A DNA stretch of 40,818 nt from a virus. How positions within the stretch are numbered: position 1 is the first letter of the stretch; the number at the start of each line of letters is the position of its first letter. The position numbers were made by a program, and so were the translations under genes. The notes below the pieces were generated by a model. The model was not told the DNA's origin. It was given only the letters and a program-made list of their open reading frames with translations, and searched no databases. This document shows positions 4,113-40,442 of this stretch, piece by piece. Where the stretch lies: the IMG/VR virus record IMGVR_UViG_3300042902_000079, positions 1 to 40,818 of that record. The stretch is one strand, 5' to 3'.

Positions 4113-4137
4113 GGTGGTTCGAATCCACCAACCACAC
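4113..4137 (+). other. tRNA-like 3' half (T arm and acceptor strand)
   Basis: GGTGG-TTCGAAT-CCACC is a perfect five-pair T arm with a canonical T loop, followed by AACCACA and C in acceptor position, without encoded CCA. No D arm, anticodon arm or matching 5' strand lies within 100 bases upstream, so it is not a complete tRNA. It could be a decayed tRNA or a captured tRNA end. The only exact complement of the acceptor strand nearby is TGTGGTT at 3642-3648. Confidence 0.55.
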
Positions 4138-4144
4138 ATAATTT

Positions 4145-4221
4145 TGGGGATGAGCACATAAGGCACGTGCGATCGACTGTTAACCGATAGGTATCTGGTT
4201 CGAATCCAGAATCCCCAGCCA
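4145..4221 (+). tRNA. tRNA-Asn (GTT anticodon)
   Basis: 77 nt. The acceptor TGGGGAT pairs with ATCCCCA. The D arm is GCAC/GTGC and the anticodon stem ATCGA/CCGAT has one A-C mismatch next to the loop. The loop is CTGTTAA with anticodon GTT, the T arm TCTGG-TTCGAAT-CCAGA, then discriminator G and encoded CCA. Encoded CCA is typical of gammaproteobacterial and phage tRNAs. It may supplement host decoding of AAC/AAU during late expression. Confidence 0.93.
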
Positions 4222-5577: not shown

Positions 5578-6072
5578 ATGGCAAATCCTAACCCAGAAAA
5601 CAAGATAGACAAGGAAAGGCGAGCCAAGATGCCACCAAGGGGAAGGGATAAACGCATCCTGATACTTGAATCAATCAAGGAGTCTGCGCTTCTTGGCCTT
5701 AGCAAGGATAGCACGAGCGAGCAGGCAGAAAAGGCCGTATTTTCTCACATGGCAAAGGTTGCATTTAAGCCAGAGGATGAGAATCAAGCTAGTCAGTCAA
5801 GCGTGTGCCTAAGCCTGTTAATGAAGAAGGGGTGGCCTGATGTTAAGCCGCAGGATCCACTTATCGAATTCGATTTCGATAGCGATGGCACTCCGCTACA
5901 AAAGGCAAATCAGCTCATGAGCGCCATATCAAATGGGGTAATCCCACCATCCACAGGCCTTAGCCTGATTAACGCCATGGCATCAGTTATGAAGATTGAA
6001 GAGGTGACGGAGATCCGCCAGGAGATTGATCGCATCAAAGAGAAGTTGGGCATAGCCGATGTCAATCCTTAA
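5578..6072 (+). CDS. Probable terminase small subunit
   Basis: 164 aa from ATG 5578 with AGAGG. It opens with NPENKIDKERRAKMPPRGRD, a basic segment shared by a phage family that sits directly before large terminases, and ends in a helical, possibly coiled-coil segment (EEVTEIRQEIDRIKEKL). It overlaps the large terminase gene by 14 bp. It is not visibly related to P22 gp3, so the role (pac-site recognition and nuclease loading) rests on position, size and the associated family. Confidence 0.65.
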   Translation: MANPNPENKIDKERRAKMPPRGRDKRILILESIKESALLGLSKDSTSEQAEKAVFSHMAKVAFKPEDENQASQSSVCLSLLMKKGWPDVKPQDPLIEFDFDSDGTPLQKANQLMSAISNGVIPPSTGLSLINAMASVMKIEEVTEIRQEIDRIKEKLGIADVNP

Positions 6073-36526: not shown

Positions 36527-36906
36527 GCAAAAATGAAAGATTGATGATTCATGTTGAGTTTTCAAAAAGCGTGATTAGCGATAAGGGGCGCGAGATATAC
36601 GAAGCTCTCATCGCCGGTGAAGAAATTGAATCAATTAGAGAAAGGTTTGGATTATCGGGTGGTTCAATGCATGGTTATGTGGATAGGGCCGTTAGGTATG
36701 GAATAATAACCGACACAAGGAAGAGGCGTAGAAGTAGGACGATCGTTGCAGTTAGCATGATGAAAAACTCAGAGGGTGACACGTATGAGATGCGCGGGGG
36801 TGCTGAGGTTTTGGCGCTTGGGTTTGAGTACAGCAAAGCATGGGCTTGGGCAAAAAAGAAAATAGAGAAGGATGGTTATCTTTGGTTTTTCAAAGGTGAA
36901 CTATGA
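36523..36906 (+). CDS. Hypothetical DNA-binding protein
   Basis: 127 aa. GEEIESIRERFGLSGGSMHG and YVDRAVRYGIITDTRKRRRS look like an HTH followed by a basic patch. The C-terminal part (GGAEVLALGFEYSKAWAWAK) is helical. More A+T-rich than the next gene. Start and end in ATGA overlaps, so it belongs to the same coupled regulator string. Confidence 0.62.
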   Translation: MSKNERLMIHVEFSKSVISDKGREIYEALIAGEEIESIRERFGLSGGSMHGYVDRAVRYGIITDTRKRRRSRTIVAVSMMKNSEGDTYEMRGGAEVLALGFEYSKAWAWAKKKIEKDGYLWFFKGEL

Positions 36907-37268
36907 CAACGATAACCATCATCGACGGGCGCGACACCCAGGGGCTTGTTGCCAAGGTAACTGCGATGCTTGCGGATGGTCCGGTACGGGTGAAGCTGTC
37001 ACCAGCAAGCAAGCGCTCATTGCAGGCCAACAAGCTGATGTGGGTGAAACTGAATGAGCTTGAGCGAACCAGAAAGTGGCACGGGCGCAAGCTGGCCGCA
37101 AGCAACTGGAAGCACCTAATCACAGCAGGCATGGAGCAGAAAGTTGTTGTGCCGAACATTGCCGGTGATGGGTTCGTTGTTTTGGGCAAGGCCACTAGCA
37201 ACATGGCGGTTAAGCAGATGAATAATGTGATCGAGATGGCTGACTTCCTACTGGCAGAATTGGCGTAA
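36903..37268 (+). CDS. ninB: NinB recombination protein
   Basis: 121 aa. NinB (lambda Orf) binds single-stranded DNA and helps early recombination steps. The match is direct: RSLQANKLMWVKLNELERTRK, WHGRKLAASNWKHLI, then VVPNIAGDGFVVLGKATSNM. Slightly shorter than lambda Orf (146 aa) at the C-terminus. Works in the same pathway as RusA and the Ref-like nuclease downstream across the circle junction. Confidence 0.94.
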   Translation: MTTITIIDGRDTQGLVAKVTAMLADGPVRVKLSPASKRSLQANKLMWVKLNELERTRKWHGRKLAASNWKHLITAGMEQKVVVPNIAGDGFVVLGKATSNMAVKQMNNVIEMADFLLAELA

Positions 37269-38347: not shown

Positions 38348-38559
38348 AGCCAGCAACCGAGCAAGACAGAATAGCCGCCAGAGCTTTGGCAAAGAACCTC
38401 ATCAAGCAGTTCGATGGTATGGGCTTGCAGCGCACTGGCAACAGCCAGGACTTAATCGAGAGAGCTTGCTCACTGCTGAGGAAGGAGGCAGCAAACAACG
38501 GCATCAGCCCAACGGTTCTCAAGTGGTACGTGTCAGCAGTAAGAACCGGTGAAATATGA
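38344..38559 (+). CDS. Hypothetical 71-aa helical protein
   Basis: From ATG 38344 (ATGA overlap). Helical and basic (DRIAARALAKNLIKQFDGMG, LIERACSLLRKEA), ending in a Trp-containing segment (PTVLKWYVSAVRTGEI). Possibly nucleic-acid binding. Last gene before the structured RNA region. Confidence 0.65.
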   Translation: MKPATEQDRIAARALAKNLIKQFDGMGLQRTGNSQDLIERACSLLRKEAANNGISPTVLKWYVSAVRTGEI

Positions 38560-38588
38560 TTGCGCTGCATGGTGCGGTGGTGTAAGAT
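38560..38588 (+). promoter_or_regulatory. Promoter candidate for the structured RNA
   Basis: TTGCGC (38560-38565), 17-bp spacer, TAAGAT (38583-38588), preceded by TG. It lies just past the previous stop. Confidence 0.42.
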
Positions 38589-38594
38589 TCTTTC

Positions 38595-38772
38595 TGACTC
38601 TTTTGCTTACTCAGGTTGGTCGCTAACCAGCTTGATAAACCGGACTGCTAATCCGGTGAGTTAATAAACCTTATGCGCCTTAAGTTGTCGATGGACGAGA
38701 TCGAAATCAACTTAAGGCCCAAAAGCCTGAACCCGTTTGCGGCAGCTCGTCCCTGTCTCAAGCGGGTTTTTT
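38595..38772 (+). ncRNA. Candidate structured small RNA with its own terminator
   Basis: About 178 nt without a good ORF. Three stable hairpins in a row: GTTGGT/ACCAGC near 38615-38633; ACCGGA-CTGCTAA-TCCGGT near 38640-38658, whose 7-base loop is a canonical anticodon loop reading GCT; and an 11+5 bp stem (38677-38718) with a 7-nt loop and 3-nt bulge. A terminator ends the unit at 38730-38772. No complete tRNA can be folded. Either a phage small RNA or a long structured leader of the next gene. Boundaries are inferred. Confidence 0.5.
38730..38772 (+). terminator. Terminator ending the structured RNA
   Basis: AACCCGTTTG (38730-38739) and CAAGCGGGTT (38759-38768) pair over ten positions with one G-U, then six T. 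Confidence 0.8.
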
Positions 38773-38787
38773 ATTGGGATTTTATTT

Positions 38788-38970
38788 ATGATTGAAAAAT
38801 TTGACGGTGTTAAGATTGGTGAGACTGTTTTGGTTCTGGAAGATGCGTTGTCGCTTAAATATGGATTCAGGAGTCACGCCTGGGCTATGGATGTATGGAC
38901 TCCGAGAGCTGTAGAAAAGGTAACAAAAACGCAATTCACGGCTGGCGGCGTTAGGTTTCGCAAGAAATGA
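38788..38970 (+). CDS. Hypothetical 60-aa protein
   Basis: ATG 38788 with only a weak GGGA upstream, 15 bp past the terminator T-run, so expression may depend on read-through. Small, beta-rich with a basic tail (VEKVTKTQFTAGGVRFRKK). Unrecognised. Confidence 0.6.
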   Translation: MIEKFDGVKIGETVLVLEDALSLKYGFRSHAWAMDVWTPRAVEKVTKTQFTAGGVRFRKK

Positions 38971-39529: not shown

Positions 39530-39772
39530 ATGGACAAGATGCGGGAAGAGTTTGAGGCTTGGGCAAAAACGAGAAGTTTAAAGAATTTCCTATTCTGGCA
39601 CCCATCAGATGGTCAGTATGAAGTCCACGCTGTGCAGATGGCTTTTGAGGGGTGGCAAGCATCCCGCTCCGCGCTGTGTGTTGAGCTGCCAGACGCATGG
39701 AACCTTGCTGAGCATGAATACAAAAGACAGGTGGAGGAATCGCTTGGTAGCGCAGGGGTGAGCTATGAATAA
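39530..39772 (+). CDS. Small phage protein of the WQASRSAL type
   Basis: 80 aa. EEFEAWAK at the N-terminus and VHAVQMAFEGWQASRSALCV match a very common, uncharacterised family of short phage and prophage proteins (the AF.GWQASR motif). Overlaps the antirepressor start. Confidence 0.75.
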   Translation: MDKMREEFEAWAKTRSLKNFLFWHPSDGQYEVHAVQMAFEGWQASRSALCVELPDAWNLAEHEYKRQVEESLGSAGVSYE

Positions 39773-40442
39773 CCTGATCGCAATGTCATCCGAGATGACC
39801 ATGGGAACCCGCGAGATTGCAGGGATGCTTGGCGCTCGCCATGCTGACATCATAAAGAGCGTTTGCAGGCTGCATGATGCAGGGGCAATTTGCCACGATA
39901 CGACACTGCCGTTTCGTGAATTCAAGACGGAGAGAGGAAACACCTACATCGAGTACATGCTTAACAAGCTGGACTCCATCACGCTGGTGGCCCAGAACAG
40001 CCCTCAATTCACGGCTGCACTGGTTAAGCGCTGGGATGAGCTGGAGCGCGGAGTGGTTCCGCAAATACCGCAAACCTACGCCGCAGCACTGCTTGAGGCT
40101 GGCCGCCTTGCAATGGAGCTTGAGCAATCTCAGGCGCAACTGGCCATTGCCGCGCCAAAGGCTGATGTGTTCGATAGGGTGATAGAGCGAGATACCCTGC
40201 TCAATGCAACGCAGGTAGCCCAGCAGATTGGCATGTCAGCCATCAAGATGAATCGAAAGCTTGACGAACTGGGCGGCGTGTATAACAAGTGCGTAAAGCG
40301 TGGCCGCGCATTCTGCCATGACTGGGTGCTTTCTGGTTATGGTGAGATGAAGATTACCGAGATGGGATACCCGCAGCCTCTTTTCACTACAAAGGGATCG
40401 TTGCGAGTTGCCGAGATATTTACCAGCGAGGGGGTCGTGTGA
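39765..40442 (+). CDS. Antirepressor with Rha and KilA-C domains
   Basis: 225 aa. Residues about 10-95 form the Rha domain (TREIAGMLGARHADIIKSVC, FKTERGNTYIEYMLNKL, DSITLVA). Residues 140-225 form a KilA-C/phage antirepressor domain (DVFDRVIERDTLLNATQVAQ, KMNRKLDELGGVYNK, LFTTKGSLRVAEIF). Such proteins counter repressors during phage or prophage development. Its presence with a Cro-like gene but no integrase suggests temperate ancestry or control of a resident prophage. Confidence 0.9.
   Translation: MNNLIAMSSEMTMGTREIAGMLGARHADIIKSVCRLHDAGAICHDTTLPFREFKTERGNTYIEYMLNKLDSITLVAQNSPQFTAALVKRWDELERGVVPQIPQTYAAALLEAGRLAMELEQSQAQLAIAAPKADVFDRVIERDTLLNATQVAQQIGMSAIKMNRKLDELGGVYNKCVKRGRAFCHDWVLSGYGEMKITEMGYPQPLFTTKGSLRVAEIFTSEGVV

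Follow-up and report, generated by a model that had tools for sequence, protein, structure and literature searches.

What does the non-coding stretch at positions 38560-38772 of this virus record do? The window analysed here, that is the whole 40.8-kb record of 40,818 nt, carries it between an ORF ending at 38559 and another starting at 38788, which confirms a first, sequence-only reading on the point that the unit is non-coding; the same reading had described it as an orphan structured RNA with an anticodon-like hairpin. The closest relatives of the region are the Aeromonas phages vB_AsaM-56, 4_D05 and 4_4512, and the unit lies between the genes for NinB and for the anti-repressor Ant (Table 1). 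The product of the gene directly behind it had no match in Pfam or PHROG, and the C-terminal part of a 231-aa ORF at 37365-38060 matches PHROG families of host RecBCD nuclease inhibitors. Folding of a 231-nt stretch of the locus gave a z-score of -5.9, with none of 200 dinucleotide shuffles as good. That the unit is a discrete structured RNA is strongly supported by its folds, its anatomy, covariation and covariance-model matches, whereas the term orphan proved wrong: judged from the sequences, it belongs to a phage RNA family with many members. It is probably a switch for the adjacent gene rather than a tRNA mimic, because the tip of one of its hairpins complements the tip of the terminator that stands just before that gene.

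The conserved core is made of two hairpins, H1 and the terminator hairpin H3. The first reading had reported a 16-bp bulged stem and a terminator, and both are as described, the bulge being of 3 nt; it did not report that the loops of the two, GGACGAG in H1 and CTCGTCC in the terminator, are exact reverse complements over the whole 7 nt. H1 is built alike in the seven distinct Aeromonas-phage elements, all of which have 9-12 bp in the lower stem, 3-4 bulged nt on the 3' side, 4-6 bp in the upper stem and a loop of 6-7 nt; in H3, across copies, an outer stem rich in G+C leads, usually through a small internal loop, to an inner stem that carries the complementary loop. Between the two lies the mini-hairpin H2, with consensus AGGYY...RRCCT and arms that vary between copies (GGCC/GGCC, GGCT/AGCC, GGTT/AACC); these pairs were read from the sequences, and automatic pairing took another register for the elements E1 and U2. 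The 5' arm of H2 overlaps the last pairs of H1 in regular copies, so that the end of H1 and H2 are mutually exclusive, and the linker from H1 to H3 measures 10-12 nt in 8/8 of these copies.

Table 1. Features of the element and of its surroundings in the window.
Feature	Position	Strand	Basis or remark
NinB	36903-37268		upstream of the element
sigma70-like promoter candidate, TTGCGC, 17-nt spacer, TAAGAT	38560-38588	+	direct sequence
extra 5' hairpin, 10 bp, loop CGCTA	38611-38635	+	fold; no homologue in phage records
anticodon-arm-like hairpin CCGGA-CTGCTAA-TCCGG	38640-38656	+	private to the window copy, chance-level
H1	38677-38718	+	fold, covariation
H1 lower stem, 11 bp	38677-38687/38708-38718	+	fold
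H1 upper stem, 5 bp	38688-38692/38700-38704	+	fold
L1, H1 loop GGACGAG, 5' half of the kissing helix	38693-38699	+	exact complement of L2
H1 3' bulge AAT, 3 nt	38705-38707	+	fold
H2 mini-hairpin AGGC-CCAAAA-GCCT	38715-38728	+	counterparts in other copies
H3 terminator hairpin	38729-38769	+	fold, anatomy, terminator scan, covariation
H3 outer stem	38729-38739/38759-38769	+	fold
H3 inner stem	38741-38745/38753-38757	+	fold
L2, terminator loop CTCGTCC, 3' half of the kissing helix	38746-38752	+	loop-pair search, fold, covariation
terminator U-tract	38767-38772	+	direct sequence
Shine-Dalgarno-like GGGA, directly after the U-tract	38776-38779	+	direct sequence; similar in most copies
downstream gene	38788-38970	+	60-aa ORF
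anti-repressor Ant gene	39765-40442		downstream of the element

Most copies have a promoter directly upstream of H1, with a -10-like box ending 20-31 nt before L1, which would place the transcript start close to the foot of H1. Against the sigma70 consensus five copies reach 10 of 12, where a score of 9 is reached by 3% of background sites. The window copy is unusual, since its promoter-like site is not directly upstream of H1 but ~90 nt away, with an extra 5' domain of two private hairpins between. The pair of boxes that the first reading had taken for a promoter candidate is present, weak by consensus score, and a promoter scan did not report it; the DNA of this site is 91-94% conserved with the relatives A2, D1 and F2, up to about 38592. 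BLAST against phages gave no match for about 38593-38670, and the two upstream hairpins are thus private to the record, as far as seen. The ~80-nt insert that holds them (38590-38670), placed between the conserved promoter-like site and H1, was seen in this record only.

Complementary loops of other sequence are found in the relatives. The element of vB_AsaM-56 found by BLAST alone is 77% identical and has loops GTACGAG/CTCGTAC; where it has a U-A pair the window has G-C, both loops being altered together. The syntenic site holds elements that BLAST left unaligned, with GTAGAG/CTCTAC in vB_AsaM-56 and GTGGAG/CTCCAC in 4_D05; the second copy of 4_D05 has GAGCAAG/CTTGCTC, and E1, from Aeromonas phages and contigs of their kind, has GTGCAAG/CTTGCAC. 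The element J1 is present in phiA005 and 4_L372X, and further copies were found in the unrelated viral contigs L197 and L219 (two each), L226, L194, L099 and L087. The shared architecture usually begins with a sigma70-like promoter, runs through H1, H2 and the terminator that kisses H1, and ends in a gene; it was found in at least 15 distinct elements, from Aeromonas phages of several types and from unrelated environmental phage contigs.

Searching for patterns, following protein neighbourhoods and running a loop-pair detector added members to those already found, for a catalogue of 14 elements, with L087 coming later. All 14 are fully loop-complementary, with 13 distinct 6-7-nt pairs, and none of 20000 loop permutations was as good in this 14-element set, part of which was found by requiring the kiss, while the window copy (W), A1, A2, D1, J1, S1 and U2 were found without it. 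Two copies are present in each of four genomes or contigs, vB_AsaM-56, 4_D05, L197 (positions 67 and 2545) and L219 (3078 and 6976, minus strand coordinates), and their kissing loops differ; no loop cross-match at six or more positions was seen between co-resident copies, the pairs being too few for significance. A search of the window for another copy found none.

Two probable members were recognised by eye only, one at 7211-7276 of L019, with a 9-nt kiss GGTGGTAGC/GCTACCACC, and one at 5678-5749 (minus) of L112, cut by the contig end, with an 8-nt kiss GGTAGCAG/CTGCTACC; L220, also a member by eye, was set aside when confirmation failed to come. The pattern CCCGCN{20,36}GCGGGTTTTTTATT returned mostly ordinary terminators from viral contigs, plus X1 and, recognised later, L087, and in genome contigs the pattern scan gave unrelated matches only; no similar DNA was found in plasmids and E. 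coli genomes. Rfam 15 gave no match reaching the gathering threshold at the window element or at five other element-bearing loci, and a known Rfam family was rejected for want of a covariance-model match. No description of the element was found in the open-access literature. The element seems to represent a phage RNA family that is widespread and has so far gone undescribed.

Covariation in related phages, which the first reading had proposed as a check, was found: in a six-copy alignment 86.6% of cells pair and 25 of 35 pairs are doubly changed, among them 11 of 15 pairs of H1 and 5 of 7 pairs of the kissing helix, the latter being 100% paired, in sequences that were cut to equal length around the loops, which favours the kissing register. 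None of 500 shuffles reached any of the five covariation measures, and sliding the partners removed the signal; once more copies join, MAFFT misaligns the drifting stems. Because of this loop-centred trimming, more weight is given to an independent test with a covariance model made of the nested stems alone and blind to the kiss. Outside its training set the model found A2 with the near-identical F2 and G2, then J1, D1, S1, V2 and L087, all at 27 bits or more and each with a perfect kiss; one more match is a fragment cut by the record end, and the lower-scoring ones are mostly ordinary terminators, with L112 and L019 as possible members. The loop-pair detector scored nearly all members at 49-66 and L087 at 46; in 2.4 Mb of mononucleotide-shuffled sequence the highest score was 46, and the few non-members that reach 49-52 are mostly AT-rich stretches lacking the terminator architecture. 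Minimum-energy folding, which does not see the kiss either, left both loops fully unpaired in 10/14 elements. The interaction that defines this RNA family is the one that covariance models and single-sequence folding ignore.

Most copies have a start codon 13-17 nt past the U-tract, usually preceded by a Shine-Dalgarno-like sequence in that interval, and the genes behind the elements are not all related: HNH endonucleases for A1, D2 and J1, Rha for U1, TnsA-like or unknown proteins for V2 and S1, and other unknowns. Among ten HNH homologues checked in other phages, two have the element (phiA005 and 4_L372X). Cassettes of promoter, RNA and HNH gene occupy different places in the related phages vB_AsaM-56 (L005, 20606-21364) and 4_D05 (L006, 18392-19090), as if the RNA element travelled with a homing endonuclease gene. 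One copy of vB_AsaM-56 has TerL on one side and the HNH and portal genes on the other, with everything on the same strand; an unconditional terminator in this position should be harmful, since late transcription would stop short of the genes behind it.

The RNA structure is well supported, and from it we infer the mechanism. The most likely role, proposed with moderate confidence, is that of a transcription attenuator that acts in cis: the kiss and the complete terminator would compete with each other. The transcript, usually started at a sigma70-like promoter, would fold H1, often H2, and then the intrinsic terminator; H1 would form first, and its loop would catch the terminator loop on emergence, favouring read-through into the gene behind the U-tract. 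Read-through is expected because the 10-12-nt linker bars a straight H1-kiss-H3 stack together with a fully closed outer terminator stem: the stack would measure ~104-109 angstroms, on rough estimates of helix length, versus a linker of at most 68-81 angstroms, and 3-5 outer terminator pairs must then open if the stack is straight. When the AAGG segment is paired in H2 instead of H1 the linker would be shorter, and termination would be favoured. The reading also draws on the same mechanism having been proposed for guanidine-IV riboswitches.

The main weakness of the attenuator is that the conserved bulge of H1 and the small internal loop of H3 could bend the stack, letting the kiss and the full terminator coexist, in which case the kiss would be neutral or pro-termination. 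The distant promoter-like site and the extra 5' domain of the window copy also count against it, as does the fact that compact phage genomes often begin a gene right after a terminator. If the attenuator reading holds, loop-loop pairing would gate a terminator with no protein involved, and since the loops are free to diverge each copy could be specific. Kissing-loop antitermination would become testable without a ligand, in modular and maybe orthogonal parts, and the element may account for the expression of homing endonucleases and further cargo genes from within late operons that nevertheless stay unblocked.

The element could instead be a stand-alone small RNA of ~100 nt acting in trans, the kiss just locking a compact fold and the adjacent gene being incidental. 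A promoter-like site and a strong terminator bracket the RNA and its folds are stable, but the start codon shortly past the U-tract of most copies, before unrelated genes, looks cis-regulatory, loops and stems drift with no conserved single-stranded seed, and the two copies of a genome differ in their loops; this explanation is somewhat unlikely. Rather less probable is a conditional terminator for Q- or N-like antitermination, as in lambda pR'-tR'/6S RNA, where the kiss would tune only terminator strength or RNA stability. The order of promoter, terminator at ~100 nt and phage operon fits it, and the TerL/portal location needs antitermination; however, a scan of window ORFs, which was not exhaustive, returned no Q/N-type antiterminator, and the covariation of whole loops is left unexplained.

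An extension of the attenuator, which we regard as speculative and improbable, gives each element a private feedback channel coded by its loops: the cis kiss would allow read-through and the short RNA would restore termination in trans, the terminated RNA accumulating until its loops bind the nascent copy and displace the cis kiss. The RNA would then be its own antisense, providing copy-specific dosage control or immunity, and two copies in one phage could work without cross-talk.

It is very unlikely that H1 and H2 are a put-like RNA that binds RNA polymerase directly and suppresses termination as in HK022. Two hairpins do lie at the extreme 5' end, beside the promoter, but the sequence of H1 is little conserved and the conserved contact is the terminator loop, whereas put RNA has a V fold that includes a triplex and works through the polymerase on terminators at a distance (PMC9378689).

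That the unit is a mimic or decoy of a tRNA anticodon arm, as first read from the 7-nt loop CTGCTAA on its 5-bp stem, is hardly credible, the hairpin being at chance frequency, not conserved and without a tRNA body. The hairpin itself does exist at 38640-38656; it is the importance given to it that fails. The window holds seven hairpins of anticodon-loop form, two of which are T-arms, versus a shuffle mean of 4.8, which puts CTGCTAA at chance level, and the other copies of the element lack it. ARAGORN and Rfam found no tRNA there, nor a cloverleaf body around the anticodon arm. A tRNA or tRNA remnant at the element was rejected on these grounds, and the proposed roles as tRNA mimic, ribosome ligand or decoy for anticodon nucleases lose their footing with the hairpin. 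Elsewhere in the window, at 4113-4129, a T-arm-like hairpin (GGTGGTTCGAATCCACC) lies ~15 nt upstream of a tRNA-Asn gene (4145-4221); no tRNA body was found at it by ARAGORN or Rfam, and it is possibly a tRNA remnant.

Among known systems, the lambda late leader pR'-tR' (6S RNA) has a constitutive promoter, a short structured transcript and a terminator before phage genes, and is Q-dependent and single copy. The order of its parts is also that of the present element, and to our knowledge no comparable kiss between a hairpin and the terminator occurs in it. Phage morons are cargo genes with their own sigma70-like promoter between phage operons, in the order promoter, gene, terminator; the element shares the first trait, but its terminator stands between promoter and gene. 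The HK022 put RNA is likewise a short two-hairpin RNA near a phage transcript start and tied to termination control, but it contains no terminator and makes no kiss with one, whereas here H1 has its conserved partner in the terminator loop; identity with put was rejected on anatomy.

A close parallel in layout is the guanidine-IV riboswitch (mepA / GGAM-1 motif), for which it is proposed that pairing between two hairpin loops pulls the linker taut, so that the outer terminator pairs cannot form and read-through follows (PMC7736828), a mechanism with single-molecule support (PMC11611296). In both, the leader holds a terminator and, before it, a hairpin whose loop complements that of the terminator, as read here from the sequences of 14/14 elements. 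Conversely, the loop nucleotides of guanidine-IV are ~97% conserved and form the guanidine pocket, while the loop positions of the phage element take 2-4 Watson-Crick types and form 6-7 plain Watson-Crick kiss pairs, in which nothing points to a ligand pocket; the riboswitch precedes guanidine export genes, the element HNH, Rha, TnsA-like and unknown genes, in phages and sometimes in two copies per genome. Identity with guanidine-IV was rejected, as the loops vary freely and the downstream genes are the wrong ones. Kissing-loop control of a terminator is already known as an idea; the RNA family itself appears to be new.
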